From the IMG/VR virus record IMGVR_UViG_3300042539_000183, positions 1 to 23,781 of that record: 23,781 bases of DNA. One strand, 5' to 3'. The stretch comes from a virus. Made by a program: the position numbers and the translations under genes. Shown here piece by piece: positions 829 through 8,689 of the stretch. Position 1 is the stretch's first letter, and every line of letters starts with the position of its first letter. The notes beneath the pieces are model-generated. The model worked only from the letters and a program-made list of their open reading frames with translations. It was not told where the DNA came from and made no database searches.

Positions 829-968
829 ACGAAGACACCAGCAAAGATCTGCTGTTCTCCCGCATTGATGCGCTGGCCGAGCAGTTTGAACAAGAGGGTT
901 ATCCCTTCGCCCACATCATCGATGTGATGCGTGACTACATCGAGATTGCCGATGACTTCCTCCTCTGA
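825..968 (+). CDS. Small acidic helical protein of unknown function
   Basis: A 47-residue ORF starting at the ATG of an ATGA overlap with the preceding gene. The protein is acidic and looks like two amphipathic helices (FSRIDALAEQFEQEG and IIDVMRDYIEIADDFLL). I do not recognise a family. The 3' end overlaps the primase-helicase start by 17 bases, so the two may be translationally coupled. It is probably real because the overlaps on both sides are tight and it uses codons like its neighbours, but nothing in the sequence gives a function. Confidence 0.6.
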   Translation: MNEDTSKDLLFSRIDALAEQFEQEGYPFAHIIDVMRDYIEIADDFLL

Positions 969-2547
969 GGGGGCGGAATTCCTTCGGCATGAGCCCTGTC
1001 CTAACTGCCCCTCCTCCGATGCTCTGGCGCGTTACAGCGACGGTGGCGCCTACTGCTTTGCCTGTGGGCACTACGAGCGCGGGGATGGGGCAGCTGTTCC
1101 CTCTAACAAGCCGCAACGTCTCGTGAATTACACCGGTGAATTTGGTCCCATCAAGAACCGCAAGCTCACCGAAGAAACCTGCCGCCAGTTCAATGTCCGC
1201 ATGGACCCTGGCTCTGCTGTCCGCTTCCCCTACTACGACAGCAACAAGGTGTTGGTGGGCTACAAGGAGCGGGGGCGCGACAAAACCTTTCGTTGGACGG
1301 GCTCCAACCCGGACCACCAGCTGTTCGGCCAACACTTGTTTGGCTCGGGCAAGACGTTGGTGATCACCGAGGGGGAGCTCGATGCTCTCAGCGTCTGGCA
1401 AGCGCGGCCCAACTGGCCGGTGGTGTCGGTTCCCAATGGCGCCAACGCCGCTGCCAAGGACCTCAAACAGCAGCTGCCCTGGCTGCTGAATTTTGAGGAA
1501 ATCGTGCTGATGCTCGATCAAGACCAGGCCGGCCAAAAAGCCACCAGTGAATGCGCGGCGCTGTTCCCAGCGGATCGGGTGTTTATCGCCACCTTGGGCA
1601 AATACAAAGACGCATCCGAGGCGTTGGTTCAAGGCGGCGGAGATGCGATCCGTCAGGCCTACTTCAACCGCAAGCCCTACATGCCCCAAGCCATCATCGA
1701 TGGCAAGGACCTGTATGAGCTGGTGTCGACGCCCTTGCATGGCAAGGATGCGGACTACCCCTATGCGGGGTTAAACCACCTCACTTCGGGGTTGCGGCTG
1801 GGGGAGCTGGTGACGATCACCGCTGGCTCCGGAACGGGGAAGAGCACCCTGTGCGGAGAGATCGCTATGGCCCTGGTCGATCAAGGCTTCTCCGTGGGCT
1901 ACATCGCCCTGGAGGAATCGATCAAACGCACCGCCTTGCGGCTGATGACCGTTAAGGCCAACAAACCGCTGCACTTGTCCAACGACATTGATGCTGATGA
2001 ACTCCGAACCGCATTTTCATCTTCTGTGGGCTCTGGTCACGTGTTTCTGCGTGATGGCTTTGGTTCTGTCGATCCAGAAGTGATCCTTAATGACATCCGC
2101 TTCATGGTGAAAGCCAAGGGAGTGCAATGGATCATCCTTGATCACCTCTCGATTCTGCTGTCCGGCAATGCATCAAATGATGAGCGCCGGATGCTGGATT
2201 TGACGATGACCAAGCTCAGGTCCTTTGTTGAAGAAACAAGGATCGGTATGGTTCTAATTAGTCACCTCAGGCGTACCACCAACGACAAGGCCCATGAAGA
2301 TGGTGCTGATGTGTCTTTAGGCCACCTCCGAGGATCCCACTCCATCGCGCAGCTCAGCGACCTTGTGGTCTGCATTCAACGCAACATCTCCTCAGGCGAC
2401 AGCTTTAGTGAGATGAAGGTGTTGAAGAACCGCTTCAATGGTCAAACCGGATCGGCTGGAACGTTGGTGTATGACATCAAAACCGGCCGCCTGACTGAGT
2501 CCTCTCAAGCTTTAACCGCAACCTCCACTGGCTATGAAGACTTCTAA
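952..2547 (+). CDS. Bifunctional DNA primase-helicase (T7 gp4 type)
   Basis: A 531-residue protein that makes RNA primers and unwinds duplex DNA at the fork. In order: a zinc-binding domain with four cysteines (C16, C19, C35, C38), a TOPRIM primase domain with EGELD (Glu140 region) and DQDQAG (about residues 189-194), then a RecA-like hexameric helicase with Walker A GSGTGKST (Lys297, Ser298), a Walker B strand ending in ILDHLS, and a HLRGSHSIAQLSD arginine-finger region. All align with T7 gp4 by eye. ATG 952 was chosen because it places the zinc cysteines one position from their T7 locations; a GTG at 931 would add seven residues. The protein ends in GYEDF, an acidic tail with a terminal Phe like that which docks T7 gp4 on polymerase. 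The end overlaps the thioredoxin gene by 14 bases. Confidence 0.95.
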   Translation: MTSSSEGAEFLRHEPCPNCPSSDALARYSDGGAYCFACGHYERGDGAAVPSNKPQRLVNYTGEFGPIKNRKLTEETCRQFNVRMDPGSAVRFPYYDSNKVLVGYKERGRDKTFRWTGSNPDHQLFGQHLFGSGKTLVITEGELDALSVWQARPNWPVVSVPNGANAAAKDLKQQLPWLLNFEEIVLMLDQDQAGQKATSECAALFPADRVFIATLGKYKDASEALVQGGGDAIRQAYFNRKPYMPQAIIDGKDLYELVSTPLHGKDADYPYAGLNHLTSGLRLGELVTITAGSGTGKSTLCGEIAMALVDQGFSVGYIALEESIKRTALRLMTVKANKPLHLSNDIDADELRTAFSSSVGSGHVFLRDGFGSVDPEVILNDIRFMVKAKGVQWIILDHLSILLSGNASNDERRMLDLTMTKLRSFVEETRIGMVLISHLRRTTNDKAHEDGADVSLGHLRGSHSIAQLSDLVVCIQRNISSGDSFSEMKVLKNRFNGQTGSAGTLVYDIKTGRLTESSQALTATSTGYEDF

Positions 2548-2830
2548 ACCAGCTCGCTTGGTCTTCTTTAAAAAGGAAGGCTGTGGCCCCTGTGACATGG
2601 CTGCTAAGGCCTTGACTCAGGTGCTAGAGCAGCACCCGGACTACAGCCAATACATCTCCATCATCCAAAAGGAAAACGCTCCGGCGTTGGTGGCTGCTTA
2701 CGAGCTGACGATGTATCCCACTGTGTTGATTATGGATAAGGATAGCCACGAACTTTCTCGCAAAGTTGGTAGCTCCTACCTAACGCAACGCTGGTGGTAT
2801 CAAGCCCTTGATGTCATTGCCAACCAATGA
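2534..2830 (+). CDS. Thioredoxin-like protein with CGPC active site
   Basis: This 98-residue protein has the thioredoxin fold signature: a strand (ARLVFFKKEG), the redox motif Cys17-Gly-Pro-Cys20, a helix, and the conserved cis-proline (YPT, Pro62) before a hydrophobic strand. CGPC is the exact motif of true thioredoxins, although the preceding Trp is Gly here and the protein is about ten residues short. Known roles in this setting are reducing ribonucleotide reductase, or in T7 serving as the polymerase processivity factor (host-supplied there). It sits between helicase and polymerase genes, overlapping helicase by 14 bases and polymerase by ATGA. The downstream polymerase lacks most of the T7 thioredoxin-binding segment, while the downstream reductase carries a C-terminal Cys pair, so I favour a reductant role; glutaredoxin-like substrate use cannot be excluded. 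Confidence 0.85.
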   Translation: MKTSKPARLVFFKKEGCGPCDMAAKALTQVLEQHPDYSQYISIIQKENAPALVAAYELTMYPTVLIMDKDSHELSRKVGSSYLTQRWWYQALDVIANQ

Positions 2831-4593
2831 GACTGGTATTTGATGTCGAGACTGATGGCCTGCTGCGGGGGCTGTCAGTTGTGCATTGTGTGGTTACGCA
2901 AGACCTCGATACAGGTGAGGTCAACCGCTACGACGACAGTGGCAATCACGAATCAGTGACGACTGGGATCAACGTCCTGGTCGAGGCTAATGAGCTGTGG
3001 GGTCACAACATCATCGGCTATGACTTTGAGGCTATCAAGGAAGTCTTCCCCTTCTTTGAGCCCCAGGGGAAGGTCTACGACACGTTGATCCTCTCTCGCC
3101 TGTTCTTCATGGACATGTGGAACCGGGATCATCGCAAGAAGCCAGCCAACATGCCCGCTCAGCTGTATGGCCGTCACAGCCTGGAATCCTGGGGCCACCG
3201 CCTGGGGGTTCTCAAGAGTGAGTATGGCAAGCAACTGAAGGGGGATTGGTCCACCTATACCCCAGAAATGCTGGAGTACTGCGCCAAGGATGTGGAGGTG
3301 TCGGTCGCGTTGGTCAAGCTGTTTCAGCCCAAGCTGGAACTGTATAGCCAGTGCATCGAGACTGAACACCAGATCGCCAAGCTGATGGCCTGGCAGGAGC
3401 GGGAAGGTTTCCCGTTTGATGTCAAGAAAGCAGAGATGTTGACGTGGAAATTACAGAGTGAACTCGAACAGCTCTCGGACGAGATGCGAACCACATTCCC
3501 TTATGTGAGTGGCGGAGAGTTCACCCCAGCGGTCAACAACAGTTCTCGTGGTTACGTCAAAGGCGTAACCTTCACGCGCTTGAGGGAGTTCAATCCCACC
3601 AGTCGTCAGCACATCGCCTGGGCCTTCCAGACCTTCCGGGACTGGGAGCCACTGGAGCGCACCGAGACGGGTATTCCCAAGATCGACGAACAAATCCTGA
3701 TGGAGCTCGACACGCTCGAATCCAAGAAGTTCGCTCGTATCTTGACCCTGCAGAAACATCTCGGACAGATCAGTCAAGGACAGAACGCCTGGTTGAAAAA
3801 GGTCGGCAAAGACGACCGAATTCACCACAGCTGCATCCTCAACTGCAACACGGGCCGTCAAGCCCACATGGGTCCAAACATCGCACAGGTTCCTTCTGAT
3901 CATGAGTACCGAGAATTATTCCATCCGGGGAATGATCGGCTGCAAGTTGGCGCTGATGCTTCTGGCTTGGAGCTGCGCTGTCTTGCCCATTACTTGGCTA
4001 GGTTTGATCATGGCAAGTTTGGAAAGGAAGTCGTCGAAGGCGACATCCACACCGCTCTAGCCAACATCTATGGCACCGACCGCAAAGCCGGTAAAGGGGT
4101 GACTTACTGCCTGATCTATGGCGGCGGGAACCGCAAGCTGGGGCTAACGGCAGGGGCTAGTAAAGATGCTGCTGAGAAGAAGGGACGAGAGATTCGAGCT
4201 CGCATCATGGAAGGTCTGGAAGGCTTTAAAGAGCTGTCAAAGGCCGTCTCCAAGCGGGCTGAGTCTGATGTGCTGACTGGTCTTGATGGACGTCCGATTC
4301 GCCTACAAGGTAAGAAGCATGCAGCTCTGAATTATCTCCTTCAATCAGCTGGGGCGATCATTTGCAAACAGTGGGTGATTCGCGCTAATCAGCTTTTACA
4401 AGAAGCCGGCATCTGCTATTGGCCAATGGCCTTTGTGCACGATGAAATGCAGCTCTCTGTTGCTCCTGAGCAAGCAGAGCAGGCTGCGTTCCTTATTACA
4501 GCTGCTATGAAAGACGTTGAGTCAGCTCTCGCTTTTAGGTGCGGATTGGATTCCGAATATCAAATCGGTAAATCCTGGGCAGACTGCCACTAA
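2827..4593 (+). CDS. Family A DNA polymerase (T7 gp5 type)
   Basis: A 588-residue replicative polymerase, against 704 in T7. The N-terminal 3'-5' exonuclease is intact by eye: FDVETD (Asp6, Glu8), Asp66, and the YxxxD motif (Tyr151, Asp155). Polymerase motif A is ADASGLELR (Asp377), the O-helix is RxxxKxxxYxxxYG (Arg419, Lys423, Tyr427, Tyr431) and motif C is VHDE (Asp539, Glu540). Tyr427 matches T7 Tyr526, the residue linked to poor discrimination against dideoxynucleotides. The protein ends WADCH like T7 WAICH. The thumb segment that in T7 holds the thioredoxin-binding loop is reduced to about 25 residues (226-252). The ATG overlaps the thioredoxin stop (ATGA), and the 3' end overlaps the HNH gene by 77 bases. 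Confidence 0.96.
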   Translation: MRLVFDVETDGLLRGLSVVHCVVTQDLDTGEVNRYDDSGNHESVTTGINVLVEANELWGHNIIGYDFEAIKEVFPFFEPQGKVYDTLILSRLFFMDMWNRDHRKKPANMPAQLYGRHSLESWGHRLGVLKSEYGKQLKGDWSTYTPEMLEYCAKDVEVSVALVKLFQPKLELYSQCIETEHQIAKLMAWQEREGFPFDVKKAEMLTWKLQSELEQLSDEMRTTFPYVSGGEFTPAVNNSSRGYVKGVTFTRLREFNPTSRQHIAWAFQTFRDWEPLERTETGIPKIDEQILMELDTLESKKFARILTLQKHLGQISQGQNAWLKKVGKDDRIHHSCILNCNTGRQAHMGPNIAQVPSDHEYRELFHPGNDRLQVGADASGLELRCLAHYLARFDHGKFGKEVVEGDIHTALANIYGTDRKAGKGVTYCLIYGGGNRKLGLTAGASKDAAEKKGREIRARIMEGLEGFKELSKAVSKRAESDVLTGLDGRPIRLQGKKHAALNYLLQSAGAIICKQWVIRANQLLQEAGICYWPMAFVHDEMQLSVAPEQAEQAAFLITAAMKDVESALAFRCGLDSEYQIGKSWADCH

Positions 4594-6593: not shown

Positions 6594-7970
6594 ATGTCCA
6601 CTTCAAAGATCGCCCGAACGGGCAGAGTCCAGTCCTGGATTGATAACCCAGAAAGTCGCCTCCCCGTTAGCTGTACCATCTTTGTGGTGGAAGATACAAT
6701 GGAAGGCCCCAATGGAATTGAAGCATCCTGGCGTTTTGTTTCCCACGCTCTCCGCTACGGAGCTGGCGTTGCTGTCCATTTATCCAAACTACGACCGAAA
6801 GGAGATGAGAATGGCAAGGGACTTGTGGCTAGCGGCCCAGTATCCTTTGCAAAGATCTACTCCTCTCTGAATGAGATCCTACGTCGTGGTGGGGTTTATA
6901 AGAATGGAGCTGTTGTTTGTCATCTTGACCTGATTCATCCAGACATTCTGGAGTTCATCACTGTTTCTCGTGGTGAGCTGCCTTGGGTCAAGCGTTGCGT
7001 CAACATCAACAGACCGTGGTGGGAACAGGCCACCGACGAAGTTAAGGCTGCTTTGCTGCGTGGCATTCAAAGTGGCGATATCTGGCTAGCAAAGACTAAA
7101 GTTGATCGTAATGGAAACCGTATTCGAGCCAATGTGTGCCTCGAAGTTTATCTGCTGTCACGGGGAACTTGTCTCCTGCAGCACGTCAACCTCGGAGCCT
7201 GCAACATCGACGACATACAACGTGCTTTTGTCAACGGAATGTCCGAGCTGTGCGCGTTACATGGTCGAACAAATGTCGACGCTAGCGGAGAGTACCTCAG
7301 TCCAGAAACAGACCGTCAGGTGGGCCTTGGAATGTTGGGACTTGCCAACCTCCTGAGGCGCTATGCCATTAGCTATCAGGAGTTCGGAGAGGCTCTCTAT
7401 CTAATCAACAACAACATCGGTCATGCTGCCACCAAAGCTTCCTTGTTGGGCTTTGAGCTAAAGCAAGCTATTGAGGCTGCTGCTCAGGTAGCTCGTGTGA
7501 ACAACATGGAGCGTGCGTTCTGCATTGCTCCTACTGCTTCCTGCAGCTACCGCTACACCGATCTTGATGGATTCACCACCACCCCTGAGATTGCCCCACC
7601 TATTGCCCGTCATGTTGATCGGGACTCTGGCACTCTCGGTGTGACCTCCGTTGATTATGGTCCTGTAGAAATCGCGGCAGAGGTCGGCTGGGAGGCCTAC
7701 AAGTCTGTTGCCGATGGCATTATGTATATGCTTGATCGCACAGGTCTGCTGCATGGATACAGCTATAACAGCTGGTCCGATGTTGTTACCTACGATGATG
7801 CGTTCATTGAAGATTGGCTGGAGTCACCCCAGACCTCTCTTTACTACGCACTTCAGGTGATGCCTGACACTCTTCGTAAGGATGATGCTACTGCCATCCT
7901 TGACGATGATTACAAGGACATCTTCTCCTTTGAGTCTGATGATTCATTTTGTATTTCCTGTGCTGAGTAA
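6594..7970 (+). CDS. Ribonucleotide reductase, class I-like alpha (catalytic) subunit, compact
   Basis: A 458-residue catalytic subunit that reduces ribonucleotides to deoxyribonucleotides. By comparison with E. coli NrdA the active-site cysteines are Cys27 (SCTIF), Cys182 in N-x-C-x-E (Asn180, Cys182, Glu184) and Cys193. Near the end, SLYY (Tyr417-Tyr418) matches the NrdA tyrosine pair used in radical transfer from beta, and FCISCAE gives a C-terminal Cys453-x-x-Cys456 pair of the type reduced by thioredoxin. The tyrosine pair plus an adjacent beta gene indicate class I, not B12-dependent class II. At 458 residues it is much shorter than NrdA (761) and lacks an N-terminal ATP-cone. The stop overlaps the beta start (TAATG). 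Confidence 0.9.
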   Translation: MSTSKIARTGRVQSWIDNPESRLPVSCTIFVVEDTMEGPNGIEASWRFVSHALRYGAGVAVHLSKLRPKGDENGKGLVASGPVSFAKIYSSLNEILRRGGVYKNGAVVCHLDLIHPDILEFITVSRGELPWVKRCVNINRPWWEQATDEVKAALLRGIQSGDIWLAKTKVDRNGNRIRANVCLEVYLLSRGTCLLQHVNLGACNIDDIQRAFVNGMSELCALHGRTNVDASGEYLSPETDRQVGLGMLGLANLLRRYAISYQEFGEALYLINNNIGHAATKASLLGFELKQAIEAAAQVARVNNMERAFCIAPTASCSYRYTDLDGFTTTPEIAPPIARHVDRDSGTLGVTSVDYGPVEIAAEVGWEAYKSVADGIMYMLDRTGLLHGYSYNSWSDVVTYDDAFIEDWLESPQTSLYYALQVMPDTLRKDDATAILDDDYKDIFSFESDDSFCISCAE

Positions 7971-8689
7971 TGTCAAGTTATCTGGATGTAATTTCTCGAA
8001 AGCGTAAATGGACTCCTGTTCAGGTGGAGCGGGGGACCTTGGTTGATGGGTCTGAGGAGTCCCTGTTTAGGGCTCTAGCCCTGCGAACCTTAGAGCTCCC
8101 AGTCAAGGAGTTCCTCCAGCAAGGACTGGACAAGGAGCTCCCCAACAAGCCTGGTGTGATGGAGGCTTTGATCTCCAACCAACAGGATGAGGACAAGCAT
8201 GACCTGGGCCTCGCCTATGTCGTTGCTGCCCATGGCACGGATGACAAGGCTGAGCGTGAAGCCCAGATGATCCGTAAGGCCTGGTTGGAGGCTCCTGAGC
8301 ATCCGATCCTCAAGGCCTCGATCCTTGAACGCAGTGTGTTCTTTGTGCTGCTGCCTTTCTTCCGTTTCAACGGGGACATGGGTCTTCGAACCTTGGCAGC
8401 AGACATCAGCCGTGATGAGCAAACCCACGTCGCTATTCACGGCATGGTTGCTCATGACCTCGGACTGAAGAGCACCCCAAACCTAAACAAGCTCCGCAAG
8501 GCCACTGTGCATTGGGTGATGGATGGTCTGGGGCGGTCCGAGAACAAGTGGCTCGACAAGGACTTTTGGCTTAGCCAGTCCGACTCTCTTTATACCCAAG
8601 GCAAAGCGGCTGGTCTGGTGGAAACCCAGCGAGCCCGTATGCCTGCTTTCTTTGAGGCGTCTAACAACGACCTACCCGCATATGGCTGA
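7970..8689 (+). CDS. Ribonucleotide reductase, class I-like beta subunit lacking radical Tyr
   Basis: A 239-residue ferritin-like metal protein that should generate the radical for the alpha subunit. Likely ligands are Glu42, Glu74 and His77 (DEDKH), Glu120 (ILER) and Glu150 with His153 (ISRDEQTH), the two E-x-x-H pairs being clear. In E. coli the radical tyrosine lies four residues after the first ligand histidine; here that position is Leu81. A Tyr two residues further on (Tyr83) is out of register. The protein is far shorter than NrdB (about 375), with helices between the ligand pairs cut back. A Tyr at the extreme C-terminus (PAYG) could serve radical transfer. It starts at an ATG overlapping the alpha stop and ends overlapping the next ATG. 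Confidence 0.87.
   Translation: MSSYLDVISRKRKWTPVQVERGTLVDGSEESLFRALALRTLELPVKEFLQQGLDKELPNKPGVMEALISNQQDEDKHDLGLAYVVAAHGTDDKAEREAQMIRKAWLEAPEHPILKASILERSVFFVLLPFFRFNGDMGLRTLAADISRDEQTHVAIHGMVAHDLGLKSTPNLNKLRKATVHWVMDGLGRSENKWLDKDFWLSQSDSLYTQGKAAGLVETQRARMPAFFEASNNDLPAYG

Follow-up and report, generated by a model that had tools for sequence, protein, structure and literature searches.

A thioredoxin-fold protein in the helicase-polymerase slot of marine T7-like phages, and its orthologues without active-site cysteines

The window, that is, the whole stretch of 23,781 nucleotides analyzed here, comes from an IMG/VR virus record and represents part of a clade A T7-like cyanophage, with its early and middle genes. 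Its polymerase clusters with those of clade A isolates in trees, with 72% identity to S-CBP42 and 66-69% to SS120-1, Syn5, S-TIP28, S-CBP2 and P60, and the gene order agrees with this placement. The order is endonuclease I, primase/helicase, a thioredoxin-like protein, family A polymerase and an endonuclease VII-like frame, followed by exonuclease, DUF3310, MazG-like, the RNR α and β genes and then the head and tail genes; for those without a Pfam scan of their own, the names rest on position and on similarity to annotated relatives (Table 1). The thioredoxin frame starts with ATG, overlaps the helicase end by 14 nt and reaches 4 nt into the polymerase gene (ATGA). The helicase/primase, thioredoxin and polymerase genes are translationally coupled, as the sequence-only reading had stated for this CGPC gene. 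In S-CBP42, the polymerase gene (L001, 3501-5266) has internal frame breaks in KC310805 and is intact in EF535234; the breaks are probably a sequencing error.

Table 1. Features of the replication and nucleotide-metabolism genes in the window
Feature	Coordinates	Strand	Basis and remarks
T7 gp4-type primase/helicase	931..2547	+	Pfam DnaB_C, Toprim_2, Helic-prim_T7_N; C-terminus ...GYEDF; 3' end overlaps thioredoxin start
Thioredoxin-fold protein, 98 aa	2534..2830	+	PF00085; PHROG 22 thioredoxin; orthologues in S-CBP42, Syn5, S-TIP28, P60
CGPC active-site codons	2582..2593	+	Translation; replaced in Cys-less orthologues
T7-type family A DNA polymerase, 588 aa	2827..4593	+	Pfam; T7 gp5 match; AF2; Foldseek
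Shortened thumb insertion, polymerase residues 228-253	3508..3585	+	Anchor interval versus T7; AF2 model
RGYVKG segment, counterpart of T7 R318-EYVAG	3547..3564	+	HMMER alignment to T7 gp5
RNR α subunit, 458 aa, class I-like (Cyano SP type)	6594..7970	+	PF02867; β-like gene next
C-I-S-C at RNR α C-terminus (tail CISCAE)	7950..7961	+	Translation
RNR β-like subunit	7970..8689	+	Weak PF00268 match, E 0.025; position after α as in Syn5, S-TIP28, P-SSP7

The polymerase is homologous to T7 gp5, its closest solved relative (E 1e-75), and its AF2 model (pLDDT 93.5) superimposes on 6p7e with a TM-score of 0.88 in a Foldseek search whose top matches are T7 polymerase. The thumb insertion is cut down, as had been proposed: 26 residues separate TTFPYV from EFNP, and the interval between the GFPFD and FNPTSR anchors is 56 residues versus 98 in T7. 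The enzyme is therefore 42 residues short of a full-length thioredoxin-binding domain (about 71-76 residues), for which the figure of 76 assumed earlier for T7 should be replaced by the published loop length of 71 (PMC3997047). The RGYVKG segment (residues 241-246), earlier taken as a remnant of T7 REYVAG, does align with it (318-323) in the HMMER comparison. Within this segment, the T7 residue E319, reported as a thioredoxin contact (PMC5984650), is replaced by G242, giving R-G-Y-V versus R-E-Y-V. The T7 “backwards loop” 272-290, which carries the DNA-facing K281, K285 and R288 (PMC5984650), has no counterpart in the short-loop polymerase. Judged by eye, the missing T7 parts would be ~265-293 and ~306-316, so that the earlier description of the loss as the first two-thirds of the insertion is roughly right. 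What is left is modeled by AF2 as part of an ordered β-hairpin, with strands at 226-232 and 249-254 (block-mean pLDDT about 89-91).

The thioredoxin-like protein passes the curated PF00085 cut-off (24.9 versus 23.5 bits) with a match that begins at profile position 17, and it is without the N-terminal β1-α1 unit of canonical thioredoxins. It possesses both the active-site motif, C17-G-P-C20, and the cis-proline, Pro62 (YPT), the latter being the sole invariant residue across 63 family members. Orthologues occupy the same slot in S-CBP42 (CQPC), Syn5 (CGPC), S-TIP28 (CKPC) and P60 (CGPC); that most clade A phages have a thioredoxin and clade B phages have none has already been published (PMC9381782). 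In 81 of 109 thioredoxin loci the gene overlaps the polymerase start or ends within 20 nt of it, 49 of them by a 4-nt overlap, and at 19 loci one small gene separates the two. In Syn5-like phages, a conserved gene of ~83 aa (Syn5 gp26) lies between thioredoxin and polymerase (L003, 3253-3504; L004, 3257-3517; L015, L017 and L018), with the motif LPSDIHLVRYKKPxWKKKExVSAIRA...YAVLEIxSGxGRIKPKLF. Clade B loci (L029-L042) have an unrelated small ORF before the polymerase, ending in RPNPPSSEAVEKAKFVDKTYxWKPK, and their polymerase is split between two frames, one for the exonuclease part and one for the polymerase part, which is also how P-SSP7 and S-TIP37 are annotated. A small zinc-ribbon-like protein (CxxC...CxxC) replaces thioredoxin in or near the slot in six further loci (L158, L159, L207, L208, L216 and L221).

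Homologues without the CxxC motif occupy the same slot in S-CBP2 and in contigs L046/L047, L022-L024, L170/L172/L174/L176/L201/L206, L272-L277, L279/L289 and L025; L107 and L125, called Cys-less by script, were dropped, as their thioredoxin is cut by the contig edge. To remove circularity, we rebuilt the family HMM from the CxxC members only, and this profile recovers 22 of 22 Cys-less loci among 10,444 ORFs (E 3e-14 to 7e-7), its reversed-sequence control being empty. Five Cys-less proteins tested against PHROGs are not named thioredoxin there. The AF2 model of the L022 protein (pLDDT 89.8) has thioredoxin or PDI-type proteins as its listed PDB matches, and the Cys-less proteins retain both the thioredoxin fold and the cis-proline. 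They are under purifying selection, with 31 synonymous versus 4 nonsynonymous changes between L046 and L047 (p 4e-16), 20 versus 2 between L022 and L024 (p 9e-12) and 11 versus 5 between L170 and L172 (p 1e-4). The helicase of the L022-L024 group ends in EYEFGIV, without the usual acidic ...DF. We found no prior description of the Cys-less orthologues in the openly accessible literature, and they appear to be new. Retention of the protein without its cysteines suggests that the function shared across the family is not a redox one.

The short loop is a trait of the whole lineage and is unrelated to the thioredoxin gene. An interval of exactly 56 residues recurs in 204 loci (135 in one scan plus 69 in a later one, summed without de-duplication) that include phages of both clades, A and B, as well as contigs in which no thioredoxin was detected; other lineages have intervals of 41, 48, 60, 66 or 74. 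Computed on distinct loop sequences, the mean top-residue frequency is 0.77 with a CxxC thioredoxin (50), 0.75 with a Cys-less one (7) and 0.76 without the gene (53), the last set possibly including contigs cut before the slot. In SS120-1, whose corresponding slot has no thioredoxin, and in L204, the interval is unchanged despite apparent loss of the gene. We accordingly rejected a tie between loop length and ownership of a phage thioredoxin, which the sequence-only reading had implied: neither the length nor the conservation of the loop differs between phages that have the gene and those that do not. Covariation between thioredoxin and loop gave no signal, with 55 of 351 windows scoring as high or higher. 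A different T7-like lineage, with an interval of 60, has its thioredoxin gene downstream of the polymerase, at a distance of ~0.9 kb, and the active site there reads WCAPC or WCEVC (L062, 8203-8517; L063, 5213-5527; L067, 8731; L069, 3572; L099, 8731).

The CISC tail of the RNR α subunit is the kind of cysteine pair that is reduced by thioredoxin or glutaredoxin and looks substrate-like. Cyano SP type enzymes are assigned to class I, and the hosts carry class II RNR (PMC6370689). Every Cys-less locus with an RNR visible on its contig has a class II-like enzyme; nearly all CxxC loci have the short class I α, with visible tails mostly CxxC-AE; P60 and S-CBP42 combine a CxPC thioredoxin with class II RNR. 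In clade B phages, where no thioredoxin was detected, the α tails are of the CxC type. The association of RNR class with cysteine loss has a Fisher p of 3e-9, a value that ignores kinship and counts the records from before the later scans. On supported branches it comes down to one independent pair, with a minimum of 2 changes in each of the two traits on the careful tree. Hence, a link between cysteine loss and class II RNR is suggestive, and as a statistical law it was not upheld, representing about one evolutionary event. We did not find this pairing in the literature consulted. SS120-1 and P-SSP7, both with class I RNR, yielded neither a thioredoxin nor a glutaredoxin (the family-model check covering part of the P-SSP7 genome), and many further contigs have class I RNR and no detected thioredoxin.

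Taken together, binding to the polymerase or replisome is the likeliest job of the thioredoxin-fold protein, given its tight coupling to the polymerase gene and the precedent of T7, whose polymerase does not need the redox capacity of thioredoxin (PMC3997047). A second role of the CxPC form, as donor to the class I RNR of this phage, is plausible, and a combination of the two fits the data better than an either/or choice. We give about an even chance to the view that the protein is a phage-owned subunit of the replisome, conserved for binding rather than for dithiol chemistry, and that the CxPC forms add RNR reduction to this. We infer that it would bind the polymerase at the thumb hairpin, or else the helicase-polymerase junction, via the cis-proline side of the fold, in a manner resembling host thioredoxin on T7 gp5. 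The 26-residue loop would then be an ordered hairpin that stays constant throughout the marine T7-like group; where the gene is absent, host thioredoxin may dock there, or the phage may need none. Lineages with class I RNR, that of this phage among them, retain the CxPC pair, and there the CxxC tail of the phage enzyme is probably an additional substrate of the protein. Simple docking has to be set against the independence of the loop from the gene, the lack of covariation and the glycine in place of T7 E319. A more specific version, in which the marine lineage has its own thioredoxin-fold clamp subunit on a compact hairpin instead of the flexible domain of T7, purely structural in several Cys-less branches and with cysteines kept for a second job in those with class I RNR, is one that we put forward tentatively, at somewhat below even likelihood.

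Among the alternatives, the protein could be a thioredoxin-fold adaptor that acts elsewhere, either within the replisome (for instance on the helicase/primase) or on a target in the host, with the loop serving as a DNA- or helicase-contacting hairpin. The conservation of the loop with or without thioredoxin, the overlap of the thioredoxin start with the helicase end and the 19 loci with an intervening small gene are consistent with this, but the T7 precedent favors the polymerase, and we regard such an adaptor as rather unlikely. The sequence-only reading had offered two options, namely that the protein uses the short loop in a different way or that it has given up processivity and serves the reductase. 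Of the former, a redox-independent replisome role remains. The latter, in which the protein donates electrons to the phage RNR, has no polymerase role and is unrelated to the short loop, draws on the CISCAE tail, on the near-constant company of CxxC thioredoxins with class I enzymes ending in CxxC, on the occurrence of Cys-less ones with class II only, and on the class II RNR of the hosts, since a class I enzyme foreign to the host could depend on a donor supplied by the phage. It is weakened by the selective maintenance of Cys-less orthologues in the slot and by the class I RNR phages without a detected thioredoxin, and the gene lies between helicase and polymerase, not beside the RNR genes; we consider it improbable. 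A reading of the Cys-less proteins as remnants in decay, and of the CxxC protein as just another redox auxiliary gene, at which the missing ATG at the usual place in the S-CBP2, L046 and L170 groups and the single divergent contig L025 might hint, is hardly credible against frames that stay open over deep branches, strong purifying selection and an L022 group that starts with ATG and has a confident thioredoxin-like fold.

The thioredoxin clamp of T7 is usually seen as a curiosity, a redox protein borrowed from the host. A family that belongs to the phages themselves, and that has lost its cysteines in places while keeping fold, slot and selection, would separate the structural from the redox role and offers ready-made natural variants for testing compact processivity factors of marine phage polymerases. 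No measured cyanophage polymerase-thioredoxin complex was found in the openly accessible literature; the closest comparison is T7 gp5 with E. coli thioredoxin. The two systems share a homologous polymerase, an insertion at the matching thumb position, a thioredoxin-fold partner and dispensable cysteines, by experiment in T7 and by comparison here. Unlike in T7, the partner is phage-encoded and without the first β-α unit, and the shorter insertion is without T7 270-290, including the basic K281/K285/R288, and does not conserve E319. In terms of RNR, where cyanopodoviruses have either Cyano SP class I or P60-type class II enzymes, this phage has the short class I α/β pair. The thioredoxin genes of the clade A phages Syn5, P60, S-CBP42 and S-TIP28 are same-slot orthologues of the one described here, to which the present analysis adds the Cys-less forms, the RNR pattern and the independence of the loop from the gene.
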